The position numbers and the translations under genes are program-made. From NCBI RefSeq assembly GCF_003148475.1, contig NZ_QGGG01000010.1:124001-188000 (forward strand): a stretch of DNA of 64,000 nucleotides, written 5' to 3'. This document shows positions 3,601-63,092 of the stretch, piece after piece. Source of the DNA: Pseudaminobacter salicylatoxidans. GTDB taxonomy: Bacteria; Pseudomonadota; Alphaproteobacteria; Rhizobiales; Rhizobiaceae. The notes beneath the pieces are model-generated. The model did not search any database, was not told the DNA's origin, and saw nothing but the letters and a program-made list of their open reading frames with translations. Numbering within the stretch: the stretch's first letter is position 1; every line of letters starts with the position of its first letter.

Positions 3601-3837
3601 ACGAATCCCCTGACCTCTCCTTGCAGAAGGCTATGATATGGAGGCCGCAAGCGCGACAGGGTTTTCGCACGGGCTACGGACCAGGCAACGCTGGAGAAAG
3701 CCAGCTGCGGCATTGCGCCCGATGGACGCGGCGCGCCGCCATGCGGAAATCACAATCGCGATGATGATGCCGGAAGCTGTTGACCCTGCCGGGCATAGCA
3801 ACAGATTCTGTCGCAGGGATTGAGGAGTGCCGATGCC

Positions 3838-4230
3838 ATGTACCGCGCCATAACGCGCAACATCGAAGTGAGCGTCGAGCCGTTCTATCTCGAGGAACGC
3901 TCCGACCCGGAGGAAAACCGCTATGTCTGGGCCTATCGGGTAACGATCGCCAACCAGTCGGACGATTTCGTGCAATTGCTTTCACGCTACTGGCACATCA
4001 CCGACGCGCTGGGACGCGTGGAGGAAGTACGCGGGGCAGGCGTTGTCGGCGAACAGCCCGAACTCAACCCCGGCGACAGTTATCAGTATATGTCGGGTTG
4101 CCCACTTACCACACCGTCGGGCATCATGGTCGGCCGCTACACCATGCGCAACGAACGCGACGAACTGTTCGATGTGGACATTCCCGCCTTCTCGCTCGAC
4201 CTGCCCGATACGTCGCGCACGGTGAACTGA
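3838..4230 (+). CDS. apaG: Co2+/Mg2+ efflux protein ApaG
   Basis: The protein has 130 residues, the usual length for ApaG, with the single fibronectin-III-like domain. [24 protein letters not shown] near residues 29-52, and [17 protein letters not shown] followed by PSGIMVGRY, are diagnostic. GAGGAG at 3822-3827 sits upstream of the ATG at 3838, and an earlier ATG at 3833 is out of frame. Its biochemical role is still poorly defined; it is linked to cobalt and magnesium homeostasis in enterobacteria. The 237 bases before it hold no gene. Confidence 0.9.
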
Positions 4231-4250
4231 CCTCCCTTACAGGCATGCTG

Positions 4251-4283
4251 CCCATGGTTCCGGCCGCTCGCCGGAACCATGGG
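4251..4283. terminator. perfect 13-bp hairpin between convergent apaG and hslO
   Basis: CCCATGGTTCCGG (4251-4263) pairs exactly with CCGGAACCATGGG (4271-4283) over a seven-base loop. It lies between two convergent genes and can serve both strands, though there is no T tract. Confidence 0.55.
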
Positions 4284-4296
4284 AGCATCGCGCAGA

Positions 4297-5289: not shown

Positions 5290-5454
5290 TGGACCAAATC
5301 CCTTGTCGCGGCATCCGGCGATGTCGCCGGGCCGCATGTTTCAGCGTAAATACGAGTGTGATGTGGCGCAAATAGGCACGCAGGGCCGCCGGATCAAGCT
5401 TTTGCGCGCCGCCGGAGTTCGCTCGTCCTGTCGTGCGGCTTCACGCCATCGGGA

Positions 5455-42262: not shown

Positions 42263-42301
42263 GCCGCCTTAGCTCAGTTGGTAGAGCACATCATTCGTAA
42301 T
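42263..42301 (+). pseudogene. 5' half of a split tRNA-Thr(CGT)
   Basis: The acceptor strand GCCGCCT, the D arm GCTC-AGTTGGTA-GAGC and the 5' anticodon strand CATCA are followed by loop TTCGTAA with anticodon CGT (42296-42298). After ATTCGTAAT the sequence leaves the tRNA and no 3' half follows. The missing 3' half, with the complementary TGATG, is found at 61468. Confidence 0.8.
42293..42301. repeat. attL core of the integrated element
   Basis: ATTCGTAAT, the anticodon loop and first paired base, is identical to 61460-61468. The host-side sequence is tRNA-like on the left, and the element-side sequence (TAGCGGGTCCG) is not. Confidence 0.65.
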
Positions 42302-42398
42302 TAGCGGGTCCGCCCCGAGAATGAGGTTCGAAGCCAGCGGGTTGGCGGAGGAGTGAAGAAAATAGTAGGGCTATAGTAGGTTGCCCTGCGCTTGGTGA

Positions 42399-42474
42399 GC
42401 CGCCTTAGCTCAGTCGGTAGAGCATCGCATTCGTAATGCGAGGGTCGCGTGTTCGAGTCACGCAGGCGGCACCA
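42399..42474 (+). tRNA. tRNA-Thr, anticodon CGT
   Basis: A full cloverleaf: acceptor GCCGCCT/AGGCGGC, D arm GCTC/GAGC, anticodon stem TCGCA/TGCGA with loop TTCGTAA (CGT), T arm GCGTG/CACGC with TTCGAGT, discriminator A and encoded CCA. All stems are perfectly paired. It reads ACG threonine codons. It lies 98 bases inside the left end of the island, so the element appears to bring its own copy. Confidence 0.95.
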
Positions 42475-45871: not shown

Positions 45872-46085
45872 GACGCGTCTCCTCCGGGTCGAACTCCTGC
45901 GAGGCAAGCCAAAGCTCGACATCGGCAGGCCGGTAGAGGATTTTGCCGGCGCGCTTGCCGGACTTAACGCGGATGAAGGGTGGGCCATAGCCGTAAATGC
46001 GGCCCTTCTCGAAGAAGCTCCGGCTCAGACCCGTGATGTCCGGCAATTGCTTGGTGGTGAGCAGTCGATTTGATCGGTCGGACAT
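45864..46085 (-). CDS. AlpA-type helix-turn-helix excisionase/regulator
   Basis: The product has 73 residues. LLTTKQLPDITGLSRSFFEK is the MerR-like helix-turn-helix of the AlpA/excisionase superfamily, and ILYRPADVELWLAS is the usual wing and final helix. Such proteins steer integrase activity or activate satellite genes. Its end overlaps the start of the primase gene by eight bases. Confidence 0.8.
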   Translation of the reverse strand: MSDRSNRLLTTKQLPDITGLSRSFFEKGRIYGYGPPFIRVKSGKRAGKILYRPADVELWLASQEFDPEETRHG

Positions 46086-46161: not shown

Positions 46162-46863
46162 TCAGCCCCGATAAGCGGAAAGCGCCTTCGCCGTCGATTT
46201 CAACTTGGAAAGGTCGTCTCGCAAGCCTTTGAGCCGGCGAAGACCGACATAAACGCGCTCGGTCCAGCGGGTGATCGGAGTTGGGAAAGCGGTATGGAAG
46301 ACGATGGCGGTGCCGGTCTTTCCTGCCAGAAGCCAGAATTGCTGACAGGCGACACAGAAGTCACGAACCCAATCTTCGTTTGGCCGACGCCCGGCGCGTC
46401 CTTCAAGGTTCGCCGCCCGGTTGCAGGTTTCCAGCAGGGACAGCAGGGCTTCGTAATGTTCATCCATCGCCCCTGAATTATCGGAGTGGTGCAGCACGGC
46501 GCCGAGCGTTTCGTTATCCGGGACTTCGCGAAGGATTGCCGCCGCCTCGGCCAGATGGTCCCGCAGCCGTTCCAACCTGTCATGCGTCGATTTGAATTCT
46601 GGCTGATCGGTCGGCACACCCACCTTGCCGTTGCTGATGGCAACTGCTGAGCCGGTTTCCATCAGCAGCCACATGCGGACCAGAAAGGCATAGAGCAGAT
46701 CAGCGTCTTCAAAGTCGAATTCAATGGCGACATCCGCCGCGAATTCCTGAAGCTTGCGCTGTTGGCCATCAGTGGCAATGCGGGCGCTGGAGCGGCGCTC
46801 GCGGTCAAGCCGCCCATCGGCGTAAGGGGTGGCCAAGCTCCCCGATTTGTCCTCATTTTGCAT
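46162..46863 (-). CDS. hypothetical protein of the mobile element
   Basis: The product is 233 residues from the ATG at 46863, which overlaps the last codons of the integrase gene by 11 bases. It is mainly helical, with LQEFAADVAIEFDFEDADLLYAFLVRMW near residues 36-63, a cluster of cysteines and aromatic residues (FCVACQQFWLLAG) near 170, and no known motif. The overlap suggests co-translation with the integrase. Confidence 0.6.
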   Translation of the reverse strand: MQNEDKSGSLATPYADGRLDRERRSSARIATDGQQRKLQEFAADVAIEFDFEDADLLYAFLVRMWLLMETGSAVAISNGKVGVPTDQPEFKSTHDRLERLRDHLAEAAAILREVPDNETLGAVLHHSDNSGAMDEHYEALLSLLETCNRAANLEGRAGRRPNEDWVRDFCVACQQFWLLAGKTGTAIVFHTAFPTPITRWTERVYVGLRRLKGLRDDLSKLKSTAKALSAYRG

Positions 46864-48016
46864 TGGCCAACTCCAATATCCGGGCTGCGACCAATTCCAC
46901 CGGCCCGCGCAGGCGCTCGGCATTCACGACGATATAGCCGCCCGTCACGTCGCCGTTAGCACGATGGTTCAGCAGGCGCTTGAGCGCATAGTAAGGAACG
47001 TCGAGGCTTTCGGCGATGGTGATGAAGGTGCGCCGAAGGTCGTGCAGCGTGAAGCTGACGCCGGACCCCGCGCTGACCCGGAGCAGGAACTTCTTCGTTT
47101 CCATCACGTGCCCCTGTTTACCAGGGCCGGGGAACACGAATGCTGACTCGCCCGCGTGCCTTTTGCGCTCCGTCAGCAGGTCCACGAGAAACCCTGACAG
47201 AGGCAGGTTCAGCGGATCGCCGTTCTTGGTCGTCGGCAGGTGCAGCGTACGAGCGATCAGGTCCACGTTGTCCCAACGCAGGGCCGTCAACTCGCCCCGG
47301 CGCATCCCGGTAAACAGCGCCATGAGCAGGAAGTCGCGCGAATAGTCCGGCTCGGCCATGACGGCCTTCCACCACATCGGCAGGTCCAGCGCCGCCACGA
47401 CTGTCTGCCGACGCTGCTCGCGGTGCCATGCCCGAGCCTGAGTCAGAATCTGCACCGGGTTCGGCGGAAGCTCGTCGTGGGTCGCGGCGGCAAAATTGTA
47501 GACCGACCGTAGATGCCGCATCACGTTGTTGGCCGTGGTCTTCCCGATCTCGGTGGAAAGCTCCTGATGCCGTTTTAGCACCATCTGGCGGGTGATTTCG
47601 TTGATCGGCCTCTTGCGCCATGCCTTGAGGTGGAGCTTGGCGGTCCTCGTGTAGTTCAGCACCGTATGCGGCGAAAGGTGCGGACGAGCGATGAAGAAGC
47701 CATCGAACGCGTCAGCCAGCGTGACCTTGGCCACCGCCTCCTTGCGCTTCCCGGCGTTCGGGTCGTGGCCTTCCGCCATTTCGGCGAGGAGCGCCATCGC
47801 CCGCTTGCGGGCGATTTCCGCCGCGAACAGATCGGCCCGGCCGATGGTGACGCGCCGGGTCTGCCGGTTCACGTACCCCTCGGCGTAGTAGACCTTGGAT
47901 TGCTTGCCGACGCGAAGACCGAAGCCGGTCAGCGTAGTGTCGCGGTAGAAAACTTGGCCGCTGGCGGGATGGGGAATTTCATCAACTGCGCGGCGTGTCA
48001 GACGTAAGTTTGGCAT
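46853..48016 (-). CDS. tyrosine site-specific integrase
   Basis: The protein has 387 residues and is of the P4-type integrase group. An N-terminal arm-binding DUF4102-like segment starts LTRRAVDEIPHP, then a core-binding SAM-like domain, then the catalytic domain with R239 (TGMRRGEL), K264 (TTKNGDP), H325-xx-R328 (LHDLRRTF), H351 (LLNHRAN) and Y361 (GGYIVV). All catalytic residues are present. It should cut the tRNA-Thr core ATTCGTAAT. The 204-base stretch upstream holds repeated AACGT boxes (48044-48061) that could be regulator or arm sites. Confidence 0.92.
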   Translation of the reverse strand: MPNLRLTRRAVDEIPHPASGQVFYRDTTLTGFGLRVGKQSKVYYAEGYVNRQTRRVTIGRADLFAAEIARKRAMALLAEMAEGHDPNAGKRKEAVAKVTLADAFDGFFIARPHLSPHTVLNYTRTAKLHLKAWRKRPINEITRQMVLKRHQELSTEIGKTTANNVMRHLRSVYNFAAATHDELPPNPVQILTQARAWHREQRRQTVVAALDLPMWWKAVMAEPDYSRDFLLMALFTGMRRGELTALRWDNVDLIARTLHLPTTKNGDPLNLPLSGFLVDLLTERKRHAGESAFVFPGPGKQGHVMETKKFLLRVSAGSGVSFTLHDLRRTFITIAESLDVPYYALKRLLNHRANGDVTGGYIVVNAERLRGPVELVAARILELANAK

Positions 48017-48220: not shown

Positions 48221-48661
48221 TTAGCTGGTATGGCTTTGCTCGCCGCTGCAAATTTCTTCGGCGATTTCAATCGATCTGGCCGCCACTTTTTCGGCGGAGC
48301 CAAGATCGCATTCCCAAGCGATTATCACTCGCCACCCGGACCTCTTCAACTCCTCAGCCGTTGCCGCATCACGCAAAGTGTTCCGATTAAATTTTTCTAC
48401 CCAAAACTCGGTGTTGGTCTTGGGTGTCGTGGCAATCTTACAACCTTCGTGTCGATGCCAGAAACAACCATGCACGAATATAACGGTGCGATACTTCGGC
48501 AAGACGATGTCGGGTTTGCCTGGCAGGCGACGTCCATGCAGGCGAAACCGAAAGCCTAGTCGGTGGAGCGCTTTTCGGAGCGCGACTTCCGGCTTTGTAT
48601 TGGCCGACCGAATTCGCGACATACGTTCTGAACGCTGAGCAGGGGTTAGAGTGTCCACCAT
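48221..48661 (-). CDS. vsr: very-short-patch mismatch endonuclease Vsr
   Basis: Vsr nicks DNA 5' of a T:G mismatch made when 5-methylcytosine deaminates. The protein has 146 residues. The catalytic D51 is in GKPDIVLPKYRTV, and the FWHRH segment carries W68, H69 and H71. It is the last gene of the methyltransferase operon, nine bases after the giant ATPase gene, although its natural partner, the C5 methyltransferase, is the first gene. This links the whole run as one unit. Confidence 0.93.
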   Translation of the reverse strand: MVDTLTPAQRSERMSRIRSANTKPEVALRKALHRLGFRFRLHGRRLPGKPDIVLPKYRTVIFVHGCFWHRHEGCKIATTPKTNTEFWVEKFNRNTLRDAATAEELKRSGWRVIIAWECDLGSAEKVAARSIEIAEEICSGEQSHTS

Positions 48662-48670
48662 CCCAACTAT

Positions 48671-51600
48671 TTACCCGTTCCCAGTACCCCGGCGTGCCTC
48701 GAGCTCGAAGAAGGGCAAGCCCCGAACCACTTCGCCTGGTACGTCAAACGACTTATATAGGCACTGGTGGACTTGGAGCGATTTGACCCGTTCGGCCATC
48801 TCGGCGGCGCTGCCCGTCAACCCGAGCGCGGAAAGCTCAGCCGGGGTGACATTCGGGACCTTGTGGACAAACCAACTAAGCAGCGGCTCACGGTAGTCCG
48901 TCGCATTCACCTTGAAATGCCGTAGGTATTGCGATGCCAGGATAACGCCGGTCCCAAACTCTCGGCCTTGTAACAGCAACTTGCGCAGTACGTCGAATTC
49001 ATACCGCATGATGTTGTCGGCTTCGTCGACCAACAGGTAGGAGTCCACTGCACGAAGCTGCGGGCCTTTGCCAATGAAAGGTCGTTTGGGCGTGCGAAGC
49101 ATGTTCTCGTAGAACATGTTGAGCATTACCGCTACGAGCATGTTCTTGCTGCGATCGTCCTGGCCTAGGGCATCGAGCGAGATGACTACGACGCCATCTA
49201 GAAACTCGTCGAATGGTTGTGTCTCACTTGTCTTGGCAGCAAACACCTCCATGTCGACGAGGTCGTCGATGATCGCCATAGGCGAATCCGACTTACCATC
49301 AAGCAGTTCGGCATAGGCAGCATGGACATCGTAGAGCGTTGGTTGCTGCCCAGGTAGGCATGCGTCATAGGCAGCGCGGACGGCTCGCTTGAGCTTGTCA
49401 CGCTGTACGGGGCCGATGCCAGTATAGATCTTGTCGAGCACGTCGGCAAAGAAGCGGAACCGATCGAGCCAGGGCGCGGCGGCATCGCCGATAGTGCTCG
49501 TGTCGAACAAGTTGAGCGGCAGTCGGTATGGCTTCACCACGCGTGCGCCCGTGGCCTTGACGAATTCCGGGCTGCTATAGTCCCGCTTATAGTCAAAGAT
49601 CAGGAAGCGCGGCCGGATGCCGCGATTGGCAGCCGATGCATCAGATATTTGCAAAATCAGCGACTTCAGCAACTGCGTCTTGCCAGTGCCCAGATCGCCG
49701 ACCACGCCCATGTTGAGCTGATTCAATCGGGTATCCGAAATATTTAGTTGGACATCGCCGGGTCGGAAACTGTCAACAGTGGTGCCAATCGACAGCACGA
49801 TCCCAGTCGAAGCCTCGTCCGGCGTGGCCAAGGCAGAGCTCTCTGCCGAAGCTAGAACCGGCGCCAGCTCGACCGGCACCGCCCCCGCGACATCATCTCC
49901 GCTGGACTCCAACGGCGCCTCAGGGGTTGCTTTCACGTTAGGGTCGGTGTGGGGTTCCACGAGGCCGGTTGTGAACTCGCCGACGATTGGGAAGAGATCC
50001 CATTGCCCGACTTTAGCCCGGACACTTTCATAGAACGCCAGAGGATCGCCCGCGACGACTTGGCCAGCGTCACTACTGCCTATTGTGATGGTCTCATCGA
50101 AACCATCGTCGTCGCGATCGCGCGCTCCGCTGCGCGGACTGTCATCCACAATTATCAGCCGCCCGCGCTGATCGACCGAGACGCATGGTCGTGGATCGAG
50201 GATGGCTGATGCGATGCGTTCATGAAGCGACGTCCATTGTGCCTCCCGGCCAACAACATCTGGATGTTGGCTGTAGACTCGCATGCCGAAACCGATGATC
50301 GAGAGCAGCAGATGCTGAAACCCAATGGCCCAGGCGACAGGCTGACCGTCGTGCGGCAGCATGCTGGCAAGAAGCCTGGAGAAGGTTCGCGCTTGCTCCA
50401 ACGCGTCGTTCACCTCCGATTGCGGGAACACAGATCCAGGCCTGCACTTCACCTCGATAGGCGTGAGGTGAATTCGGACGCCATTTGTCCCGAGGTGGAT
50501 GCCCACGACCAGAAGGTCAGGACGAGAGAGAGACGCGTCTTTCCGATCCTTGCCCAAGGATTTTGCGAGGTCTGAGAAATATCCCCGAAATGGATCGACT
50601 GGCACGATTATGCAGACGGTGATGTCATCGCCTGAGCTGTCGATGACCGGAACTAGGCTCTCGCCTATGTTGGATAGCCTAAATCGATCCTGCAGCAACC
50701 GAACGGCTACGAACAAGCCCAGATCGCCCGTTGCGCCGGCATTGTCGCCGGCCAGGCCCCTAATCGTGGGGATGCCGCGCCGAGCAATCTCGAGCAAAAC
50801 GTCCTGAACTTGGTTCGGCTCGATGGCTGCGCATCCCGGGAGGCGGCTAAGCGCCTTTGAAAGAGCTTCGCGATCTGCCTGCTTGACCCTCGACAGCAGG
50901 TAGTAGCCGTTCGTATCGCCGGCCCGATGGGAATAGGATGGCATATCATAGTCCCAAAGATATGCGTCCTCCAGCCATCCGCCGAGGAAGCAAGCCGGAT
51001 CAATCGCTGAGGAGGAGACCGCGACGAAGTCGGTCCGGCGTGTCTCGAGCATGTCGCGCACCACATTGACGTTCGGCGCAAACCGCATTCCGGTGGGACG
51101 ATCGCCAAGGCTTTCCAAAGTGCCCAGGCAAGCGGCGACCTTGTCGGCGAGAACATCTCCAGAATTCGACCCCGGGAGCGACTGGCGCGTCTCGCTTAGG
51201 AACGCGCCAGGGAGTTGACGCCGGACACGATGCCGAAGTAGGCCGCCATGCCCGAGTGGTGATCGACCCGAAACCGCAGCGGTGCTGGGCTCGGACATGT
51301 CGAGTTGTGCGATAATACCTAGATCGGGCCGCGCCGTCGCTGGCTGTCCGTCGAACCACCGGACGCCGTTGCGGGTATCCTCCGATAAGTTTGCGATTGT
51401 TGCGTCGTCGGGACGCGAGTCCCCGTCGCGGTGGTCGTATATTTCGACGACGCGTGGCCCCGCCCCTTGGCGGAGTGCGCGGCCGTTGCCGTCGCGGTAA
51501 CGATCCGAGCACCAAGTGATAAGTCCCTCATTGCATGCATCAGTGGTGCCACCGGCACTCGCCACCACGACGCCAATAGCTGGTTTCGCCGCCAAAAGGC

Positions 51601-54142
51601 CCGACACGTCCTCCAGCGCGCGGGCGACCTGTGCCGCACTAAAGCCAACGGAAATGCCGCCGACTGAGATGCCGAAGCCCTCGCCGAAGGGGGCGATTCG
51701 AGAGCGGCTGGGAAGGCGACCAAGTCGCTCGCCATTCCACAAAACCGACCAATAGTCGGTGCCATTTTCAACTGCCAGGAAATCAACCTTCTCGATACCA
51801 CCCGGCGATCTAAGCGAGAGCGTCAAGAGGTCGGGGACACAGTCTGGATCTAGGACACTCACCGCAGGGCAAGGATTGCCGCCGGACTCAGCCTCTAGCA
51901 GCACACCTTGGGCAACCGCGTGCCATGCAAGACGCAGGGGGTGCAGCGGCGATAAGATAATCGCGTCGGGGACCCGGGATATTGTCCTGCGATCATCATC
52001 CAGCGACGTGACAATACCCACATCGACCCAGCATGCTACGTCGGGTTCGGCGGCCAGCCAAGCTTGGTAGGCATCGAGATACCGTTCGACAACGGCGCGG
52101 AAGTCCTCATCGCTAGCAAGCCACTTGCCGAGCTCGGCCGACTCCATCAGCCCGGTTTGGTCACCAGAACCCCGAATGCGCGCCGCAAGTTGCTGCCTCG
52201 CTTCCACGAAGCCAACTGGCGGCTGGAACTCGGTGGCGTCCGGGCGCGGGTCCTGCAGGAAACGCCCAGTTGAGAAGATTGGTCCGGTGCCAGTACCCCA
52301 GACGGGTTGGACCCAAGCATCTACATAGTCGTCGGCAAGCACGATCGGCAGGTACGATCTACCCACGGAGTCTTCGGATAGCATCCAATCCTGCAGGCTG
52401 GAAGCTCTGGCACTTCGGTTCAGCTGGACGACAGGCTTGGCTTCTGAAGGTTCGATTGCTCGGCGATTGGCACGAATCAATCGCTCAAATTCGCTCCGGC
52501 AGCCCTGCTCGACCACGTCCTCAACCGCGAGGAATACACGGCAGGTCTCGTGCGAGACCGAGCCGTCCGCCGCTGGCTTGCTGAAGCCAATGTCAACTTG
52601 ATAGTTCGTTTCTGCTTCAACTTCGATCTGATGAAGTCCCTGGCGCACAGGACGGACGAAAAGCTGCTGCATGGCATCAAGGCGATCCTCGGTATCGTCC
52701 GCGGTGCCAGTCGCCTCAGCAGCCAGGTTCACTCCCGGCGATGTGAACACCATCAGTTCGTAGCGTCCACCGCCAGGCACGGTCAGGCTGGCTTCCAGCT
52801 CTGGTGCCCCCTTGGCGCGACGCGTAGGTTTGCGTGGCGGGGTCAGCTTGCGGGCGAGCCGACAGGCAACGAAAATTCCGGGTTGCCAGGTCGCGAGCGA
52901 CACGATCTTGATCGCCCCGGGCTTGAAACCCTCGGCAGATGCCGCGTACCGAAGGGGCGTCCTGTGGTCCGGCGGCGCTTCGTCAAGGAAGGCAGTCTCC
53001 TCGTCGCCAACCCGAACCTCCCCAAGCTTGTTGCCCTTGCCGCGCTCAATTGACACGACGGTATCTGTCGCGTCCTTGCCCACTGTCTCGAAGGTAAGTG
53101 CAACACTGCCCTCCACGAGGATGGGCATGCCCTTTGCCAATGGGACAAGGCTATTCGAGCAACCCATTCGAATGTCGCCCTGCGCGGCGACATCCTCGGT
53201 GAGCAACTCCGACCACTTCTCGGTTGTCAGTGCGCTCCACCAATTCGGCGCTGCCGGCATATTCAAACCATTGTCCGGAGCGTAGTAGGCGGCCGTCGCC
53301 CTTTCGAAGGCCGTCGGAAGGTCGCAGGTCTCGCGCAAGTGGGTCAGGAAGGCATCGAGGTGGCGACTATCTTCATCGCTCGCGTTCTCCTGCGCACGGC
53401 GAACGCCGGGGCCAAATCCATCGGACATGGCATCCGCGATTTTCTCCAAGACGCCCAACTGATCGCGAGACGATATTCCGCCGTCATGCATCGGTGGCAT
53501 GCCGCAAGCAAGGCTGACCTGTTGTCCCGGCGTGAGGCCAGTCGAGCCCGGCGTCGCCGAGAATAGGCGCGACAGGACCTTCCAGGCTGCAGCGCGTTGG
53601 GTTCGCTCGGGATCCATTTCGTCTGCGGCAGAAGCCGCCCGGCCAATCAATATGAGCGCGTCGTCGCGCTGCTGCGGGTCCATGATACCCGCCTTACGAA
53701 TGCCGACGCGCACTAGTTCCTGAACGAACTCGTCTGCCCACCAATCCTCGAACGGCACGTTGCCTCCGTTGTTGGCGGCCGCGACGCCAAATTCGTCGGT
53801 CGTTGACGTCACCGAGCGCATGCTGTGGTGGCCCGGAGGAACAAGGGCCAGAAATGTGGGCTGGGAGGGTGAATTGCGTAGGTTGAGCAAGTGGGTGTCG
53901 TCACACCGACCAGACACGCCGACCGGTGGATTTTCCTCTCCCACGGCCAAACTAGGCAGCTGAAGCAATATGGGCACCCTAGAACCTACCACGCCATCGG
54001 CCGTTAATAGGTCAAAGACTTCGGACAATGTCTCCCTTTGAGGACCATGAAAGATCAAACGCACTTCGCCTTGGTCGCCGTCAGGCGATTGGGCGAGCTT
54101 GTCGCGAATGAGGTCCGCGATGGCAGATGCCAAATGATTCAT
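48671..54142 (-). CDS. 1823-aa HerA/FtsK-type ATPase with internal nuclease-like motif (DptH/DndH-like layout)
   Basis: This is a giant multidomain protein. The C-terminal third is a HerA/VirB4-class P-loop ATPase: Walker A GDLGTGKTQ near residue 1484, FLIFDYKRDY after it, Walker B YLLVDEADNI near 1706, and ILASQYLRHF as sensor. Near residues 1205-1232, RPDLLVV...TPIEVKCR has the D...ExK spacing of a PD-(D/E)xK nuclease. The N-terminal 1100 residues have no motif I recognise. Length, place in the operon and a C-terminal HerA ATPase match DptH/DndH of phosphorothioation-dependent restriction, but no dnd/ssp modification genes are present. It overlaps the previous gene by four bases. Confidence 0.75.
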   Translation of the reverse strand: MNHLASAIADLIRDKLAQSPDGDQGEVRLIFHGPQRETLSEVFDLLTADGVVGSRVPILLQLPSLAVGEENPPVGVSGRCDDTHLLNLRNSPSQPTFLALVPPGHHSMRSVTSTTDEFGVAAANNGGNVPFEDWWADEFVQELVRVGIRKAGIMDPQQRDDALILIGRAASAADEMDPERTQRAAAWKVLSRLFSATPGSTGLTPGQQVSLACGMPPMHDGGISSRDQLGVLEKIADAMSDGFGPGVRRAQENASDEDSRHLDAFLTHLRETCDLPTAFERATAAYYAPDNGLNMPAAPNWWSALTTEKWSELLTEDVAAQGDIRMGCSNSLVPLAKGMPILVEGSVALTFETVGKDATDTVVSIERGKGNKLGEVRVGDEETAFLDEAPPDHRTPLRYAASAEGFKPGAIKIVSLATWQPGIFVACRLARKLTPPRKPTRRAKGAPELEASLTVPGGGRYELMVFTSPGVNLAAEATGTADDTEDRLDAMQQLFVRPVRQGLHQIEVEAETNYQVDIGFSKPAADGSVSHETCRVFLAVEDVVEQGCRSEFERLIRANRRAIEPSEAKPVVQLNRSARASSLQDWMLSEDSVGRSYLPIVLADDYVDAWVQPVWGTGTGPIFSTGRFLQDPRPDATEFQPPVGFVEARQQLAARIRGSGDQTGLMESAELGKWLASDEDFRAVVERYLDAYQAWLAAEPDVACWVDVGIVTSLDDDRRTISRVPDAIILSPLHPLRLAWHAVAQGVLLEAESGGNPCPAVSVLDPDCVPDLLTLSLRSPGGIEKVDFLAVENGTDYWSVLWNGERLGRLPSRSRIAPFGEGFGISVGGISVGFSAAQVARALEDVSGLLAAKPAIGVVVASAGGTTDACNEGLITWCSDRYRDGNGRALRQGAGPRVVEIYDHRDGDSRPDDATIANLSEDTRNGVRWFDGQPATARPDLGIIAQLDMSEPSTAAVSGRSPLGHGGLLRHRVRRQLPGAFLSETRQSLPGSNSGDVLADKVAACLGTLESLGDRPTGMRFAPNVNVVRDMLETRRTDFVAVSSSAIDPACFLGGWLEDAYLWDYDMPSYSHRAGDTNGYYLLSRVKQADREALSKALSRLPGCAAIEPNQVQDVLLEIARRGIPTIRGLAGDNAGATGDLGLFVAVRLLQDRFRLSNIGESLVPVIDSSGDDITVCIIVPVDPFRGYFSDLAKSLGKDRKDASLSRPDLLVVGIHLGTNGVRIHLTPIEVKCRPGSVFPQSEVNDALEQARTFSRLLASMLPHDGQPVAWAIGFQHLLLSIIGFGMRVYSQHPDVVGREAQWTSLHERIASAILDPRPCVSVDQRGRLIIVDDSPRSGARDRDDDGFDETITIGSSDAGQVVAGDPLAFYESVRAKVGQWDLFPIVGEFTTGLVEPHTDPNVKATPEAPLESSGDDVAGAVPVELAPVLASAESSALATPDEASTGIVLSIGTTVDSFRPGDVQLNISDTRLNQLNMGVVGDLGTGKTQLLKSLILQISDASAANRGIRPRFLIFDYKRDYSSPEFVKATGARVVKPYRLPLNLFDTSTIGDAAAPWLDRFRFFADVLDKIYTGIGPVQRDKLKRAVRAAYDACLPGQQPTLYDVHAAYAELLDGKSDSPMAIIDDLVDMEVFAAKTSETQPFDEFLDGVVVISLDALGQDDRSKNMLVAVMLNMFYENMLRTPKRPFIGKGPQLRAVDSYLLVDEADNIMRYEFDVLRKLLLQGREFGTGVILASQYLRHFKVNATDYREPLLSWFVHKVPNVTPAELSALGLTGSAAEMAERVKSLQVHQCLYKSFDVPGEVVRGLPFFELEARRGTGNG

Positions 54143-55650
54143 GCGGTTATTTCCAGACGGTTAGGAAAAGGCGGCACGAGCAGCATGCCACTTTCTGCAT
54201 CAGGGCTGTCGAGCACCAACCCGAGCATGCGCAACTGGTGACCAAGGTCGTTCGTCGCGATATCCCTGTGGTCGACGATCGTCCCGTATCCGGCCAGATG
54301 CTGCGAAAGGCGGCGCACCGACCTTGGACCCGTGGTGCCTGCCAGGGAACAATGCACGAGCGCCAGGACGCTGACAGGACCCAGGCCGACGACCCAAGGG
54401 CTCGAATTGCTCGTCCCGCGCTTGCGAAGCACGAATCCCTGATCATATGCACGCAAGGCGGGGTTCGCAGCTTGCCGCTGGCCGAGGACATGGCGCGCGA
54501 ACTCCATGATGTTCGATCCGATTCCCTTTTTGCACAGCAGGGTACGGGTCTCACGTTCGGATACTTCGGCCAACGCCTCGCGAATTCCCGTCGCCTCTAT
54601 CTCTGTCACGCTCGCCCGCACACGCTTGCAAACCTCTGCGACGGCCCTTGCCGATGATATTGACGCAATCTCAATACCGACGGTTTGAAGTGCCCATAGA
54701 GTGGCGTTGAGCCCAAGACGGGCCTGCAGGAAGGCTGACGCGCGGTCCTTGATGCCGGGAAGGGCGCGATCACCATAGGACAGGAACTGGAATGTCTTGG
54801 GATAAATTGCTGAGCGCGCCGATGCTTCGTCGATGGGCCCGCCGCCGTCGAGCGCCCCTTTTATGCAATCCCACAACCTAGCATGGACGTCGCACAGCCA
54901 AGTTACATGCGCGACCGCAGCGAGCCTGACAATCGCCTCCAGAAGGGTGGTCCATTGTCGGCGGGTCATGGAATCCTTGGCGGAAATGATCGAGCCAAGG
55001 TCACGGACGAAGCGCCGTGCTGGGTAGTCCAGTCCACTTGTGTCGGTTGGATCGAGCGTCGATTGTTCGCCGGGCTCAACAGCCGCCCAGGCTGGCTGTG
55101 GCGACCAAGCCTCGATCTCGGCTTGCAGGAAGCGGGCGAATATGTCGTCGGCTTCGGCAACTGAAAGAGCCTCGAACAGCGCCTGCCAAGTAGCGTTCGC
55201 TATTGCCACGTCCGGCGCCCCAAGCCACACCATGCGCCTGATCAACGCACCAGCCGGCCAAGAATTGCTGCTGAGCCTCGCCGATCCGGAAAAGACGGTG
55301 GCTTGGGGCACGAGCGGAGTGACCTGCAAGAAACGCTTCGAGGATTGATTGGGGAGCTTGGGGCTTTCGAGGACGGAGTGGAGCAGCACGTGGAAGGTGT
55401 CTGCGTCGAGTGAAGCCGAATCTGGCTTGCGCGCGCGGTCGCGATACCATTGGACTTCCTTGTCGAGGTCGCGCCCGCGTTGGGGCACGGTGCGCTCAGT
55501 TGCACCCTCCAGACCGATGTGCCGGTACAACGAAGACAGAATGACTTCGGAGCTTGCATATTCGGGAGCAGGCGACATCGCGAGCGCTGAATCCTGATAG
55601 GCCGGATGGGAGGTGCGCCAGGGTTCGTCCCTGAATCTTGCTAGTGTCAT
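54139..55650 (-). CDS. 503-aa protein of unknown fold in the methyltransferase-ATPase operon
   Basis: I do not recognise a family. The chain is largely helical, has no membrane segment, no P-loop and no clear catalytic motif. WRTSHPAYQDSALAMSPAPEYASSEV is near the N-terminus, and RLSQHLAGYGTIVDHRDIATND near the C-terminus looks like a winged-helix segment. It overlaps both neighbours by four bases (ATGA), so it is made in step with the two ATPases. Its position between a mid-size P-loop protein and a giant HerA protein is that of DptG/DndG. Confidence 0.6.
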   Translation of the reverse strand: MTLARFRDEPWRTSHPAYQDSALAMSPAPEYASSEVILSSLYRHIGLEGATERTVPQRGRDLDKEVQWYRDRARKPDSASLDADTFHVLLHSVLESPKLPNQSSKRFLQVTPLVPQATVFSGSARLSSNSWPAGALIRRMVWLGAPDVAIANATWQALFEALSVAEADDIFARFLQAEIEAWSPQPAWAAVEPGEQSTLDPTDTSGLDYPARRFVRDLGSIISAKDSMTRRQWTTLLEAIVRLAAVAHVTWLCDVHARLWDCIKGALDGGGPIDEASARSAIYPKTFQFLSYGDRALPGIKDRASAFLQARLGLNATLWALQTVGIEIASISSARAVAEVCKRVRASVTEIEATGIREALAEVSERETRTLLCKKGIGSNIMEFARHVLGQRQAANPALRAYDQGFVLRKRGTSNSSPWVVGLGPVSVLALVHCSLAGTTGPRSVRRLSQHLAGYGTIVDHRDIATNDLGHQLRMLGLVLDSPDAESGMLLVPPFPNRLEITA

Positions 55651-57758
55651 CGACCCCCGCCTTCCTTTCGAACGGCGAATCCAGATCGCCGTTGAACAAC
55701 CGACATACCGCTTGACCCAATCCGAATGCGTGCGCGATCGAGTACGAGCTTGTCCCTGACGATCGGGCCTGAAAGGCGCGCTCGCGTCGTGTCCAGCAGC
55801 GCAAGCACGGTCCGGGGCAGCGACGCTACCGACATCCCTTTCTCAAGTTCCTTCACCGCCTTGAAGAGGTCGTAGGTTAACGCGATGGGCTGGCCCGACC
55901 TTCCATCGCCAACCATCAAGAAACAGATCGGAGACACGGGCCGGCCGGCCTTCTTGGAATCGTGTGGCTGCACCGAGCGCGACGGCACGACCAGAGTAGC
56001 GCGCCGAATCATCGGCGGAAGAGGTTGGCCAAACGTCGTCGTCAAAGAGATTTCGAAGTCCTGATTCCGGTTAAGCAACTGTTCGACTTCCTGCGCGACG
56101 TCGAATAGGTCATCGCCAGCGGTGTCCTCCACTACTCGCTGGAAGTCATTCAGGATCGGCGCGTCGAGTACGGCGCCGGTCCTCGCACCAAGGGCGCGTC
56201 GCACTAGGCGGCATGCAAAGTCACGGAGGAAGCGCTGGACATTGGTGGCAGACGCGGGCCGCTTTCGGCGTACGCCACCAAGCGAGAGCTCCGCGTCCAG
56301 CTTGGCCAGCCGTTCGATCAGGTCGACCTCAAGCCTGGAGAGCACTTGTAGTTTTCTAATATAGTCAAGGCCTTCAAGCACTGATCGGCTGAACCGAACG
56401 TCAAGCTCGCGCAGAGCAAAGCGGGTGTTTTTTGTGACCTGCACTTCCGTGTCGGGATCGGTAAGGGCGGGGTCCAGAAGCTCAGCCACTCCGTCGAGCG
56501 CGCTGCTTATCATTGCGGGCAAGTATGCCGTCCGACGAGACGACAAAAACCACTGCAAGCCCATTGCAGTATTGTCGTCTTCGAGCCCAAGCTCCTTGAT
56601 CTCTCGGAGGAGGGCGGGGCCAGCGTCGCGCTCCCAGCGGTGAAATAGCGCGTGCTGGTATTGCGACGCGACCAAGTGGAATATCGCGGTCGATTGTTCC
56701 CTCGACGGCTTGCCGCTCCGGCGCGCAATCTCGTCGAGACCGAAGAGCTTTCCCGCCCATTCGCACGGCTCTAGACTTGCTTCGCGTGGGGATACCCGGT
56801 GGCCGGCAAATAGGTAGGATGCAAGGGAGAACATATCGCGAAAGCTCCAGCGCTTTCCGCTTGCCACCTCGAACCATCGAAGAATCTGCAGGAGCGACGT
56901 TTCTGCGCGCCCGTGTGCTAGCCGCTCGCGACTTCCGCAGAACGGGCAGGAAGTGCCGCCAGCGCACGAGCCGGCTGCTGGCCACTTCTCCGCATCCAAT
57001 GCCGTGCGAAACAGGCTTCGCGCCGGTTCCTCACCGCCGGCCACCGGCCTTAGCAACAGCGATTCGGCGTCCATCGGCCAAACGGCTACGTCGGCAAACC
57101 CGGCAAGCGGCCAGCAGGAGGGCGCGTCTGGCGTCAGGCTAACTGCACGCGTGACGGCTTCAAGCAAGTGGCGCGGCCCCTCGCGCTCATGGTCGATCGC
57201 CTCGATCAGGGCATCGTCCAACACGCCACGGTTGACGCAGCACAAGTAGGCCTCCTCGGCGCCGGCGGCTTGGACTGCATCGAGTTCATCGAGCAAGAGC
57301 TGCGCGGCTTGCTTCCCAGTGGCACCGACTACCGCAGAGGCATCCTGAACGATCGACAAGCCAAGCCTTCGCGAGCGGCCCCCGAGACCCAATGTATCCA
57401 CGCGAACAAGCCTCGGTACGGCTGTGCCCTCAGGCGGGAAGAATGATTTCTTGAGCTTCGCTGCAAGCTCGCCTTCGGCGCCAAGCGCCGTGTCGAGCCA
57501 GCCTACGGTGGATTCGATTGCCTCAGTCTTCCCGTTCCCAGGCCCCCCCACCAGCAATAAGATGCGCGGGACCCCGTTGGACTCCGACGCAATCGATCTG
57601 GCCCATGCCTCAAGGCGATGCAAAAGGTTGGTCTCAAAGACAGCTTGGCCTGGCCGGCCGCTACCCGCGTCGAACAGGCGCCGCACGCCACCAGACCGGT
57701 TTCCGGCCCAATTCAGCAGTTGCGCCGGAAACGGCGCCTCGGTGATTTCCCCAGTCAT
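55647..57758 (-). CDS. 703-aa AAA-like P-loop ATPase (DptF/PglY-like layout)
   Basis: Walker A is LLVGGPGNGKTEA at residues 68-80, Walker B QLLLDELDAV near 153-162, and CCVNRGVL near 173-180 looks like the sensor strand. A probable zinc site has C265, C271 and C274 (CAGGTSCPFC). The remaining 400 residues are helical. The P-loop followed by an Asn-Arg-Gly sensor strand resembles DptF-type ATPases. It starts eight bases after the methyltransferase gene and overlaps the next gene by four. Confidence 0.7.
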   Translation of the reverse strand: MTGEITEAPFPAQLLNWAGNRSGGVRRLFDAGSGRPGQAVFETNLLHRLEAWARSIASESNGVPRILLLVGGPGNGKTEAIESTVGWLDTALGAEGELAAKLKKSFFPPEGTAVPRLVRVDTLGLGGRSRRLGLSIVQDASAVVGATGKQAAQLLLDELDAVQAAGAEEAYLCCVNRGVLDDALIEAIDHEREGPRHLLEAVTRAVSLTPDAPSCWPLAGFADVAVWPMDAESLLLRPVAGGEEPARSLFRTALDAEKWPAAGSCAGGTSCPFCGSRERLAHGRAETSLLQILRWFEVASGKRWSFRDMFSLASYLFAGHRVSPREASLEPCEWAGKLFGLDEIARRSGKPSREQSTAIFHLVASQYQHALFHRWERDAGPALLREIKELGLEDDNTAMGLQWFLSSRRTAYLPAMISSALDGVAELLDPALTDPDTEVQVTKNTRFALRELDVRFSRSVLEGLDYIRKLQVLSRLEVDLIERLAKLDAELSLGGVRRKRPASATNVQRFLRDFACRLVRRALGARTGAVLDAPILNDFQRVVEDTAGDDLFDVAQEVEQLLNRNQDFEISLTTTFGQPLPPMIRRATLVVPSRSVQPHDSKKAGRPVSPICFLMVGDGRSGQPIALTYDLFKAVKELEKGMSVASLPRTVLALLDTTRARLSGPIVRDKLVLDRARIRIGSSGMSVVQRRSGFAVRKEGGGR

Positions 57759-57766
57759 ACGCCCCC

Positions 57767-59095
57767 CTAGGCCGTCGCTGCTATTGGCAACTCCGCTATG
57801 CCCTGACCAACCGCCGATTTCTTACTCGCGACTTCTTCAAGGAGATTTTGAACGGCTATGCCAATAGCGCGCGCGAGATACGGCGGAACGGCGTTGCCGA
57901 CCTGTGTGTAGCGCGGACATTCCTTGGTGCGCCGGTCGCCCCCGGTCGTGAACTTTCCCTTGAACACAAACCAATCCGGGAAAGATTGGAGACGAGCGCT
58001 CTCGCGGACGGTTAATATTCGAGGTTCGCAGTAGTGCAGAATGTCATCTGGCAGGGTGGTCAGCGTCGGCGCTGGTTCGTCGCTCGCCATCGGGTAAATC
58101 CGGTGCTTCTTCAGGCCATAGGTTTTGCGGCTTTCGTTGTCCATGCGGACACCCTTGCGGCACTCGACCAGAATGCGACGAAACCGCTCCTGAACGTCGT
58201 CCCGATGCCGCGCAAGCCGCATGCTGTCCATGTTTCCCTGATGGCCAGCCTGCATGAGCTTCTGATATGTCGTAGTAGGCTTGCCATACTTTACCTCACG
58301 GAAGCCGCTGGAGGATTCCGGGTCTGTGCAGGCGATCATCTCGCGACCGACAGTCTCCAGGTCGGACAACGCGCTAGAGGCACTGACGGCCTCGGGAAGG
58401 CCAAGTTCCTGAAGCTGCGTGAGTCGCGCTTCGTCGAGCAGTACGAATAGTCTCCTAATTCCGCCATCTAGCCATTCGCACAAGTCCTTCCGGATACCGA
58501 CTGCTATTAAGCGCGAACGACGCTGGGGTACACCGAACCGCGAGGAATCCACCAACATTGCCTCCATCCTGTATCCAGCGACATCGAGGCTATCGACAAG
58601 CTTGTCATAGAAAGACCTTGGCTTTTCCGCGTGTTCACCAGGAACAGGAAGGCCCACTATGTTTCGACGGGCGTGGGCTACGCGCATCCCTGGTACGTTT
58701 TCCAGGATGAGGGCTTGTGGCTGGAGTGCGTCCACGACCTCCACGTATTTTTTGAAGAGGAGGTTCCGGGGGTCGTCCTCGACGCGACGTCCAGCAAAGC
58801 TAAAACCCTGGCAGGGTGGACCGCCAGCAAGCACGTCAATAGTGCCTCGCAGCTTGATCAGGTCATCCTTGTGCTGAGCAAGGAGGAGCTCAATGTCCCA
58901 CGCCCGCTTGGCGAGCCAATTCGGCCAATCAAAAGCGACCTTTGGCGAGGCGTTGTCTATGAAATTGGCCGAAAACGTCTCGAAGGCCATCGGATCGCGT
59001 TCAATCGCGAACTTGCCGTTCAGCCCTGCCAGCGACAGTCCAAGAGACAGCCCGCCGCAGCCTGAGAACAAATCCGCAAAACTATAAGACTTCAT
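57767..59095 (-). CDS. DNA (cytosine-5) methyltransferase
   Basis: The protein has 442 residues with the C5 methyltransferase motifs in order: I DLFSGCGGLSLG (8-19), IV GGPPCQGFS with catalytic C95, VI ENVPG, VIII QRRSRL, the target recognition region around residues 230-340, IX ARLQSFPD, and X QVGNAVPPYLA. The target sequence cannot be read from the protein. It heads an operon that continues with the two ATPases, the 503-aa protein and Vsr. The 235 bases upstream contain an AT-rich promoter-like patch. Confidence 0.93.
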   Translation of the reverse strand: MKSYSFADLFSGCGGLSLGLSLAGLNGKFAIERDPMAFETFSANFIDNASPKVAFDWPNWLAKRAWDIELLLAQHKDDLIKLRGTIDVLAGGPPCQGFSFAGRRVEDDPRNLLFKKYVEVVDALQPQALILENVPGMRVAHARRNIVGLPVPGEHAEKPRSFYDKLVDSLDVAGYRMEAMLVDSSRFGVPQRRSRLIAVGIRKDLCEWLDGGIRRLFVLLDEARLTQLQELGLPEAVSASSALSDLETVGREMIACTDPESSSGFREVKYGKPTTTYQKLMQAGHQGNMDSMRLARHRDDVQERFRRILVECRKGVRMDNESRKTYGLKKHRIYPMASDEPAPTLTTLPDDILHYCEPRILTVRESARLQSFPDWFVFKGKFTTGGDRRTKECPRYTQVGNAVPPYLARAIGIAVQNLLEEVASKKSAVGQGIAELPIAATA

Positions 59096-59102
59096 GTACG
59101 AT

Positions 59103-59124
59103 CCCGATATTACTATATTCCGGG
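59103..59124. promoter_or_regulatory. imperfect inverted repeat at the methyltransferase promoter
   Basis: CCCGATAT (59103-59110) and ATATTCCGGG (59115-59124) form a loose dyad directly before the methyltransferase start, in an AT-rich patch that continues to about 59165. It could be an operator for self-control by the methyltransferase or another element protein. Confidence 0.25.
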
Positions 59125-59330
59125 CATAGAGGCGCGATAATTTCCATTTTTACTTTATTGCGATCAACGAAAACTCGGGCCAATCCCTAACAGGCACAAT
59201 ATCTGGATTTGTCCAGAAGCGCCAGGACCATAACAACAGAGGGACGATCATCCTACAACAATTTCACAGGGAGCAAGCTTTGGTCGCCCACAAACCCAGC
59301 TCCGGCCCACTCGGCGTAGCGCATTGGCCT

Positions 59331-61061
59331 CTAGGCTTGCTCCTGCTCGACCGTGAAACGCAAGTTCCCGACAGTCCAAACACTGGACGGCTCCGGCAAA
59401 TACTCTTCCTCTTCCGGAGTACTCAGAACTTTCAGCTCCTTCATCAAATCGCCCATCGTGGCTTCGCCAGCTCGTCCTTGAAGCCTCGCTACTGCCGTGA
59501 CGAGCTGATTCCAGTTGGAAAATGTGGCATCGCCGCCCACAACTTTTCGGAGCGAATGCGCGTAATGCCGCGTGAGAATAAGTAGGCTAACCTCGGGTCT
59601 CGCAGAGCCGGATGCGAGCCGCAAAGTAGCACGAAGCTCGGCCGTGCTCACGGCGGCGAGCCACGAACGCACCTTGTGAACCCAGTCGCTAACTTGACGG
59701 TTGAGCCGGTCGGTTCTCGCCAGCATCGTCGCGAAATCTGCGCCGTATGGGTCTTGATGCTTTAGCTGCGCAAGAATCACGCGATTGTTTGCTGCGTCGA
59801 CGATCACCAGATCAATGTCCGTCAAAACCTTGTCGGCTTGCCTCAGCTTGATGTTGCCGCGGAATTCCAGCGCTGGGAGCACCGACAGAATAACCCTCTC
59901 AGCCGCTCGCTGCATCACGCCTTCCCGTGCCTGTTGAGCTCGGTCATATTCCTTCGGAAAACTATGCTGCAATGAATTCAGAAGGAACAGCATGACTTCA
60001 TCACTATCAGCGCCCGCAAGGGGTCTGATGACATGATCGTCGGAGCACTGGATCAACGGAGGTATCGGAGCCCCCGGCCGATCGAGCAGCGACAAATTTC
60101 GCCTGCTCACGGAAAGTACGTCGAAGATGCTGCGCACGGTGTCATTCGTGACGGGCTCGTGGCCGTAGAGCTGCTCGCCAAACTCATTGATAAACGCCTG
60201 CATTCCCTCGAGAAAACCTGGGGTCTCAACCGACACGGTGAGGACGTCCTCAATCCTGATCGAAGGCTCCTTGTCTAGGAGTGCTCGCACGTATGCACGG
60301 TGTTTCATTGCCACTGATACGATGAAGATAGCTGCAAGCTGGTAGTTCCCAAAGGTGATGCCACCGAAGGCTGTCGAGAAGTGGAATGTGTCAAAACCCT
60401 TTGCGAGCAGCATGTCGCTGTAAGCGGGACCGAAGAAATAGAAATCCAGCGTTGGATCGGCCTCGTACCCAATGAAGTGCTCCGCGAATGGATAGACGAG
60501 ATCGGTAAGCAGAGACCTGACTTCGTCGCCTATTTTGGCGCCGACCGTCGTTTCGTAGTCCTCCGCAAAAGTTCTTCGGTAGTGCCTCTTCTGAACACGC
60601 TCGAGCTCGCGTTCGTGCAGCTCGAGATCAGCTAGCTTCGCGGGCAGCACGATACGAAAACGATCGGGCAGCCTCTCTATCCACCCTCCCTTTGCGGTTA
60701 AGCTCTGCGCTATTCGTCGGCCGTGCTCGATTGCCCCGGCCACACCGATCAGCGAGAGCACCGCACCCGAGTATGTAAGGTTGCGCCGTATGGTGACAGT
60801 TGGCGCGTCAAAGCGAGCGTGTGCCTGCATCGCCAACTTAACGATTCGGACCACGCCGATGCGCATGAGGTACGATCGCTCTTCGTCGGCCCCGGTAGGC
60901 TCGGTTCCGACATCCACACCTTCGAAATCGAGATCAAGCTCATTGACCGCGATCCGCATCAGCAATCCGAGTCGATCGGTTGCGACTTCAGCCGCGAGAG
61001 CTCGCTCCTCCTGATTCAGGCTTTCGTAGAACTCTCGCAGGCTGTCAGTCACCCGATACAA
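59331..61061 (-). CDS. 576-aa protein with Mrr-like QxK nuclease motif
   Basis: About residues 1-380 are helical with no motif I recognise. Near residues 425-450 the text TDIDLVIVDAANNRVILAQLKHQ has an Asp followed, about 17 residues on, by Q-L-K, the D...QxK arrangement of Mrr-type restriction endonucleases in the PD-(D/E)xK fold. The protein could be the effector nuclease of the cassette. It is on the same strand as the methyltransferase operon, 235 bases upstream, and may have its own promoter. Confidence 0.6.
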   Translation of the reverse strand: MYRVTDSLREFYESLNQEERALAAEVATDRLGLLMRIAVNELDLDFEGVDVGTEPTGADEERSYLMRIGVVRIVKLAMQAHARFDAPTVTIRRNLTYSGAVLSLIGVAGAIEHGRRIAQSLTAKGGWIERLPDRFRIVLPAKLADLELHERELERVQKRHYRRTFAEDYETTVGAKIGDEVRSLLTDLVYPFAEHFIGYEADPTLDFYFFGPAYSDMLLAKGFDTFHFSTAFGGITFGNYQLAAIFIVSVAMKHRAYVRALLDKEPSIRIEDVLTVSVETPGFLEGMQAFINEFGEQLYGHEPVTNDTVRSIFDVLSVSRRNLSLLDRPGAPIPPLIQCSDDHVIRPLAGADSDEVMLFLLNSLQHSFPKEYDRAQQAREGVMQRAAERVILSVLPALEFRGNIKLRQADKVLTDIDLVIVDAANNRVILAQLKHQDPYGADFATMLARTDRLNRQVSDWVHKVRSWLAAVSTAELRATLRLASGSARPEVSLLILTRHYAHSLRKVVGGDATFSNWNQLVTAVARLQGRAGEATMGDLMKELKVLSTPEEEEYLPEPSSVWTVGNLRFTVEQEQA

Positions 61062-61459: not shown

Positions 61460-61505
61460 ATTCGTAATGATGGGGTCGCGTGTTCGAGTCACGCAAGCGG
61501 CACCA
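61460..61505 (+). pseudogene. 3' half of the split tRNA-Thr(CGT); attR
   Basis: ATTCGTAAT core, then TGATG (61468-61472), the variable loop, the T arm GCGTG-TTCGAGT-CACGC, AAGCGGC, discriminator A and CCA. No 5' half precedes it. TGATG pairs exactly with CATCA at 42289-42293, and not with TCGCA of the intact tRNA, so it belongs with the fragment at 42263. The rejoined acceptor stem would have one C-A mismatch at pair 6-67. Confidence 0.8.
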
Positions 61506-61511
61506 CTTCTC

Positions 61512-62798: not shown

Positions 62799-63092
62799 TT
62801 ACGCCCGCTCTAGCCGCCGCCTGACGGCCTTCCGCACGCGATACCAATAGGTCTGCTCCGCGCCGTCGCTGTCGTACCACGCGCGCTCGTGGCGGGCGAA
62901 AGCCTCAAGCTCAGGGGCGCGATAGCTGGCAATAATGTCGTCAGCTACGCGGGCGATGACGTCGGCGGGGATTAGTCTCGGCTTGATCGCGTCGGTCCAG
63001 ATCGTCCAGAGCATGAGGCCGACGAAGACGAGTGCCTGTCCTCCGAAGAGATTAGTAGCAGCCACGAAAATGCTTGGACGAATGTATCCCAC
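62799..63092 (-). CDS. small membrane protein, paralogue of the gene at 42505
   Basis: The product has 97 residues. An N-terminal membrane segment (LFGGQALVFVGLMLWTIW) is followed by DAIKPRLIPADVIARVADDIIASY and a C-terminal half nearly the same as the 42505-42813 protein, including HERAWYDSDGAEQTYW. In both places the gene is on the minus strand with an XRE gene divergent beside it, which suggests two related elements. Function is unknown. Confidence 0.6.
   Translation of the reverse strand: MGYIRPSIFVAATNLFGGQALVFVGLMLWTIWTDAIKPRLIPADVIARVADDIIASYRAPELEAFARHERAWYDSDGAEQTYWYRVRKAVRRRLERA

Follow-up and report, generated by a model that had tools for sequence, protein, structure and literature searches.

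By what mark would a cell spare its own DNA from a DndFGH-like restriction machine if the modification gene beside that machine encodes a cytosine methyltransferase? The question is raised by an operon in a 64,000-nucleotide stretch of Pseudaminobacter salicylatoxidans DNA (contig NZ_QGGG01000010.1, positions 124,001 to 188,000; the whole stretch is called the window), in which the genes of a C5 cytosine DNA methyltransferase (M), three large subunits (F, G and H) and a Vsr endonuclease (V) follow one another. Our analysis makes it likely that M-F-G-H, with or without V, is a restriction-modification-like defence system with 5-methylcytosine (5mC) as the self mark, so that the cell probably tells its own DNA from that of invaders by cytosine methylation. 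The genes concerned are the following.

59331-61061, minus strand: U, 576-aa protein with a DxD...QxK motif, an accessory neighbour outside the core
57767-59095, minus strand: M, C5 cytosine DNA methyltransferase, 442 aa (PF00145, 178 bits)
55647-57758, minus strand: F, 703-aa P-loop protein, remote homologue of DptF and SspF
54139-55650, minus strand: G, 503-aa subunit with a confident, mostly helical model
48671-54142, minus strand: H, giant subunit with nuclease and HerA-type ATPase, 1823 aa
48221-48661, minus strand: V, Vsr mismatch endonuclease, 146 aa (TIGR00632)

A preliminary description of the locus had reported six genes on one strand, five of them tightly spaced, and the ends of the open reading frames (ORFs) and the gaps are exact to the base: 8 between M and F, -4 between F and G, -4 between G and H, 9 between H and V, and 235 between U and M. 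The order M-F-G-H-V is not due to chance, because it recurs in many genomes. Matches to curated models (Pfam, NCBIfam, PADLOC) cover M, V and the C-terminal part of H, and F and G go unrecognised: neither protein has a PADLOC or NCBIfam match at E ≤ 1, and in Pfam F gives two sub-threshold P-loop matches and G none. The description had also claimed that BREX, DISARM, dnd and ssp genes are missing, in agreement with our searches. In the PADLOC scan, which covered nine window proteins (the six listed above and three neighbours), F, G, H, V and U matched none of PglZ, BrxC/PglY and DrmA/B; the DndB/C/D/E and SspB/C/D profiles had no match among the window ORFs beyond base 40000.

Whether the methyltransferase and the trio travel together was then addressed by a survey of co-occurrence, and they do: a C5 methyltransferase is present in 62 of the 68 loci found. 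The genome scan used a query blind to M (aligned H residues 1-1400 of six loci, the HerA part excluded) against one genome per species, and it samples the H family because it was based on two peptide patterns. It returned 62 loci, the majority from Pseudomonadota and the others from Planctomycetota, Verrucomicrobiota, Gemmatimonadota, Chloroflexota, Bacteroidota and Acidobacteriota, at least seven phyla in total by our own assignment. Among 72,556 plasmid records, tblastn detected H in Shinella, Sinorhizobium fredii and Rhizobium leguminosarum (69-74% identity), each with M-F-G-H-V, and in Pseudoalteromonas (32%), where F-G-H has M downstream and no Vsr. Together with one viral contig and the window, the 62 genome loci and four plasmid loci make up the 68, which were examined with profile hidden Markov models; L071, which repeats the viral contig, and CP002245, a further S. 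fredii plasmid record, are not counted. Among near relatives, in a sample of 297 genomes from the order, the G query matched a single one, and the H query one of the four genomes of the genus; in both cases it was the window's own. Family alignments hold proteins of 0.75-1.35 times the length of the window protein (60 rows for M, 62 for F, 63 for G and 65 for H). The E-values given here are optimistic, as they come from searches of small sets (3 to 65 sequences) or, for hhalign, from one pair.

Four of the loci without M are cut by a contig end: L053 begins in G, L055 and L066 in H, and L068 in F. L065 has, on the same contig and upstream of F, a C5 methyltransferase at about 15 kb and a Vsr at about 13.5 kb. 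In most loci M adjoins F-G-H at a spacing of a few bases. It lies upstream in gene order in L046 and in the window, and the sole M of the stretch lies downstream of H in L008, L011, L027, L047, L063 and L069, in four cases on the opposite strand. The motifs PPCQ, ENV and QxR are intact in the window M, with the motif residues kept in 60/60 aligned M; the target motif is not given by the nearest solved structure. The M, Vsr and glycosylase profiles matched none of 24 control Dnd/Ssp loci at E 1e-3 (eight DptFGH, 13 SspBCD and three E. coli SspBCD loci). Conversely, the DndB/C/D/E and SspB/C/D profiles, which do find their own control loci, matched 0/68 loci. In the host genomes of 50 of the 62 genome loci, DndC was above its cut-off in 2/50 and reached E 0.001 in five.

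What kind of machine might F-G-H be? F is, by profile and motif comparison, a remote homologue of SspF and DptF. Against seven annotated DptF sequences hhalign gave 34% (E 4.2e-4, 210 columns; 7% earlier with four sequences), and single-sequence searches in both directions gave weak, mostly collinear matches. Crossed F/G pairs against Dpt proteins yielded nothing better than E 0.24. The nearest relative found is SspF, with three collinear blocks in the protein of E. coli S10 (hhalign 79%, E 1.6e-5) and E 3.7e-5 in the 24-locus set. In F as in the seven DptF, the motifs Walker A, DA[ST], N-x-G and DP succeed one another in this order, with different spacing, and two of the seven also have the C...CP pair of F. 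Walker A (G71..K77) and N176 are kept in 62/62 F, and we read N176 as standing in the place of Walker B. This motif set fits the description of DndF in PMC10853773, where Walker B has an Asn and some members carry a zinc insert. The model of G has a pLDDT of 91.8 and is mostly helical. Foldseek found no PDB match for it at E ≤ 0.001, and DptG (7exx), a triple winged-helix protein, is absent among the best 50 rows; the profile-profile comparison with DptG is weak (13%, then 2.5%). Of the proposed relation of F and G to DptF and DptG, the first half is therefore borne out and the second is not.

The strongest likeness lies in the C-terminal third of H, whose parts are as follows.

52523-53173, minus strand: all-beta part of the H model, residues 324-540
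50357-50521, minus strand: PD-(D/E)xK nuclease motif of H, residues 1208-1262, aligned with the same part of DptH
48701-49729, minus strand: HerA-type ATPase of H, residues 1472-1814

Residues 1476-1814 match the PADLOC model of DndH (2.5e-68), and residues 1472-1814 the solved DptH domain 7es4 (1.3e-43). The comparison of H with DptH, also proposed earlier, shows that the nuclease-HerA region is common to both (H 1206-1823, hhalign 100%, E 7.4e-40, 572 columns). With HerA removed, the nuclease stretch alone remains (38%, E 3.4e-4), and a further weak DptH profile block lies at 672-741. P1208, D1209, E1230, K1232 and Q1250 are invariant in 65/65 aligned H; Walker A (G1487-K1488-T1489) is kept in 65/65 and Walker B (D1706-E1707) in 61/65, the other four being gaps. 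The model of H 320-1345 (pLDDT 86.8) has an all-beta start; its best Foldseek rows are mostly beta-sandwich proteins with low TM-scores, and a methylase-type fold is absent among the best 50. In DptH the nuclease is preceded by two beta-sandwiches, a target-recognition domain and an inactive methylase domain. The alignment for this fold used 49/52 candidate rows (L007, L008 and L028 were left out). Given the homology of F and H, the view of the locus as a system without relatives has to be given up: in our reading of the sequences, F-G-H appears to be a third branch of the FGH restriction machines and not a categorically new system.

The last gene of the operon speaks for the activity of the first. 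The window V scores 148 bits with TIGR00632 (cut-off 97.85) and aligns to E. coli Vsr (1cw0, 4e-32). Vsr is found in 47/68 loci, mostly directly after H; it precedes M in L049, L051 and L064, follows the downstream M in L027, and is split into two pieces in L045. Asp51 is kept in 47/47 relatives. In five loci without Vsr, an HhH-GPD glycosylase (220-244 aa) stands directly after H, in L068 after an HNH gene and in L067 on the other strand.

L062, 15487-16185: HhH-GPD glycosylase, MutY/MIG-type
L067, 15296-15958: HhH-GPD glycosylase, MutY/MIG-type
L068, 8589-9299: HhH-GPD glycosylase, MutY/MIG-type
L069, 15371-16093: HhH-GPD glycosylase, MutY/MIG-type
L070, 15427-16161: HhH-GPD glycosylase, MutY/MIG-type

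The best solved relatives of the L070 enzyme are MutY proteins (3e-31), and it matches over its full length the 221-aa protein 1kea, a 'possible G-T mismatches repair enzyme' (7e-30). A glycosylase occurs in 5/21 loci without Vsr and in 0/47 with it (Fisher p 0.002, for loci that are not independent). Its substrate is presumably, like that of Vsr, the T:G mismatch left by deaminated 5mC. Two unrelated repair enzymes would thus fill the same accessory role, and their alternation is as expected if M really makes 5mC. That both could mend deaminated 5mC argues that M is active.

Several observations weigh against a 5mC-marked system of this kind. G shows no relation to DptG or SspG by profile or fold comparison, and H outside its C-terminal third matches DptH weakly. 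Neither Vsr nor glycosylase is present in the stretch covered in 16/68 loci; several of these sixteen are cut, and L065 has the distant Vsr. A metagenome contig, L059, has H without F, G and M, which is unexplained, and no C5 methyltransferase was found in its genome. The 68 loci are not independent, and some closely copy one another. Finally, M is less tightly tied to the trio than the trio is to itself: distances of F, G and H agree mutually at r 0.98-0.99 (58 loci), those of M with F/G/H at r 0.57-0.60 (0/999 permutations as high, same loci), and some loci have other C5 methyltransferases in place of M, with F/G/H not altered to match. The earlier proposal of a DptFGH-like trio with a C5 self mark thus holds as regards the homology of F and H, the presence of M and the absence of dnd and ssp genes, and falls short in the homology of G to DptG.

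The exchange of M can be followed in single loci. A second kind of C5 methyltransferase accompanies the usual M in L024 (3022-4758 and 4945-6333), stands with an 84-aa ORF weakly matching M (49%, 50 bits) in L039 (4282-6230), and lies downstream in L027 (16034-17695). These arrangements look like stages of methyltransferase replacement. L011 and L047 share a third kind (48%); the partner M of L011 is uncertain, because a further C5 methyltransferase lies elsewhere in its genome. In a simpler comparison of ten relatives of the window, the F-G-H of L011, whose M differs, shows no local break. A segment of F/G/H tracking the type of M was sought and none was convincing: windows at partial r 0.2-0.34 (0 or 1/200 permutations as high) are scattered, and the r of 0.99 at H 1401-1440 is spurious, coming from few pairs (47/200 permutations as high). 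It would follow either that a target motif is common to different kinds of M, or that the trio reads no single fixed sequence.

The same exchangeability would suit an F-G-H that stands alone and is triggered by signs of infection like phage nucleotides or transferring DNA, a mode of action put forward for DndFGH in 2024, with M and Vsr serving otherwise, for example in island stabilisation or regulation. PMC10853773 describes DndFGH as free of an inbuilt modification module and argues that it acts without one, and here M is exchanged while F-G-H stays unchanged, with no segment following the type of M. Against this stand the near-constant presence of M, its spacing of a few bases in most loci and its intact motifs, and we regard a stand-alone trio as unlikely.

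If 5mC is the self mark, M would methylate a sequence motif of host DNA to 5mC, and F, G and H would form a machine of the DndFGH/SspFGH type. F would bind nucleotide through its P-loop, G may be an accessory, perhaps DNA-binding, subunit, and H would supply nuclease (PD-(D/E)xK) and translocase (HerA-type) functions. The machine is predicted to nick or cut DNA without the mark and thereby to defend against phages, and Vsr, or the glycosylase in other lineages, to repair T:G mismatches from deaminated 5mC. The mechanism is drawn by analogy: SspFGH reportedly damages DNA without phosphorothioate (PT) and harms cells lacking PT (PMC8092258), and DndFGH is in some cases toxic without its modification (PMC12707154). 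The sign of the mark could also be the reverse. The activity of SspE is described as modification-dependent (PMC8092258), and by that example 5mC might switch the system on, F-G-H attacking methylated motifs in a given context. Yet it is FGH modules, reported to attack DNA without the mark, that the trio resembles, and not SspE; moreover, such an attack would be suicidal without further control, because the carrier's own DNA bears the mark. We consider this reversal very improbable.

With 5mC kept as the self mark, the modification partner of F-G-H would be an ordinary base methyltransferase, which could make the question of self and non-self in FGH systems approachable with simple methylation tools. 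If true, this would also give a function to some of the pairs of C5 methyltransferase and Vsr that, in at least seven phyla, neighbour large unnamed genes. More tentatively, and with considerable doubt, FGH could be a single ancient restriction platform that has been combined with three or more self marks (double-stranded PT in Dnd, single-stranded PT in Ssp, and 5mC), with mismatch repair by Vsr or HhH-GPD glycosylase as a regular fifth part. The trio may then read the presence or density of the mark and not a fixed sequence, because methyltransferase families are exchanged without a matching change in F/G/H.

The protein U, upstream of M, had been put forward as a component of the system. 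Its QxK motif is real, with D415, D417, Q432 and K434 invariant in 6/6 aligned relatives. U is present in 7/68 loci including the window, once as an 86-aa fragment, and on a Rhizobium plasmid (L092, 3481-8970) a relative (37%) adjoins genes for a Dcm-type methyltransferase, a Vsr-type protein and a type II restriction enzyme. We therefore reject U as a core part; it is an occasional neighbour. Among other neighbours, related HNH endonuclease genes lie near the operon in 8/68 loci by BLAST (L026, L028, L034, L040, L060, L061, L065 and L068), five of them confirmed by Pfam. Upstream of F-G-H in the verrucomicrobial L065, at 3018-5407, are genes for a 665-aa reverse transcriptase and a DUF3127 protein.

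The location in an island, as first described, stands: a tRNA-Thr gene and a copy of its 3' part enclose about 19 kb with a VapE/RepB-type protein, an integrase and all six genes.

42399-42474, plus strand: tRNA-Thr (CGT anticodon), left attachment site
43571-45988, minus strand: VapE-like/RepB-primase protein of the island (PF05272, 225 bits)
46853-48016, minus strand: tyrosine integrase of the island (PF00589, 53.6 bits)
61460-61509, plus strand: copy of the tRNA 3' part, right attachment site (92% over 50 bp)

Immediately ahead of the intact tRNA-Thr, at window positions 42263-42310, its 5' half recurs in diverged form, and 38 bp from behind the tRNA occur again (92%) beyond the right attachment site at 62811-62848; both are perhaps traces of an earlier insertion. 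Carriage on an integrase island here and on plasmids elsewhere raises the thought that the set mainly serves as an addiction module keeping its island or plasmid, or that, like BREX, it stops invading DNA without cutting. SspFGH left no visible degradation products in Southern blots (PMC8092258). The PD-(D/E)xK motif, invariant in every aligned H, argues for cutting, and of the explanations weighed here we find this one the least probable.

How does a 5mC-marked F-G-H compare with known systems? In the literature searched, which lay outside preprints and most subscription papers, we found no description of a methyltransferase coupled to F-G-H, nor is one given in the covered parts of PMC12839542 and PMC12907096. 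PADLOC-DB 2023 does not name the M-F-G-H-V system, as F and G are unmatched. To BREX and DISARM the likeness is confined to M, which in PADLOC resembles DrmMII solely as a C5 methyltransferase. With type II restriction-modification or Dcm-Vsr loci it shares a methyltransferase with Vsr nearby, as in L092, whereas restriction here would fall to a trio that totals about 3000 residues and includes two P-loop subunits, and not to a type II enzyme. MADS systems are methylation-associated, and the HerA part of H matches mad8 (1.1e-11); the nine window proteins matched no other mad protein (for M, among the best 25 of 63 families). The CxC ABC ATPase-DndE systems of PMC10853773 are alike in that cytosine methylation replaces PT in a Dnd-related system, but their components are an ABC ATPase, DndE and a nuclease-helicase of HKD type in place of F-G-H.

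SspFGH is compared through the E. coli S10 locus, where F-G-H proteins of 605, 510 and 1803 aa lie beside SspBCD and F is related to ours. SspFGH is paired with SspBCD PT modification, while the 68 loci lack ssp genes; G and H have no significant match to SspG and SspH of this one locus. The trio as a plain SspFGH is thus rejected, since F alone matches real SspFGH and no ssp genes accompany it. In 13 SspB/C/D loci (alphaproteobacterial genomes, Pseudomonas and plasmids) there is no significant relative of F, G or H. In L104, L105, L106 and L114, SspBCD stands beside helicase, ATP-binding and phospholipase D-like genes, the first three loci with weak PADLOC matches to PbeA, MzaB and DrmC. The sources differ on the relation of the known trios themselves: the review PMC12707154 calls sspFGH homologues of dndFGH, and PMC8092258 reports no sequence homology.

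From DndFGH/DptFGH the present trio differs in that the DptF and DptG models miss F and G, G being unrelated by the comparisons made, and in its company: the eight canonical loci sampled come with dnd genes or with none for modification, and a C5 methyltransferase or Vsr is found in 0/8. DptFGH can also adjoin other kinds of methyltransferase, as in one of the control loci, from Natronorubrum (L090, 1-5075), where two Dam-family adenine methyltransferase genes flank an archaeal DptFGH; Dam-type adenine methylation is possibly another mark for an FGH trio there. PT modification genes, absent from our 68 loci, are often absent beside DndFGH as well. Both sets consist of a P-loop protein, a subunit of about 450-500 aa and a nuclease-HerA/FtsK subunit of about 1700 aa, encoded in the same order by overlapping genes, and they are joined by a detectable relation of F and by the related nuclease-HerA region of H.

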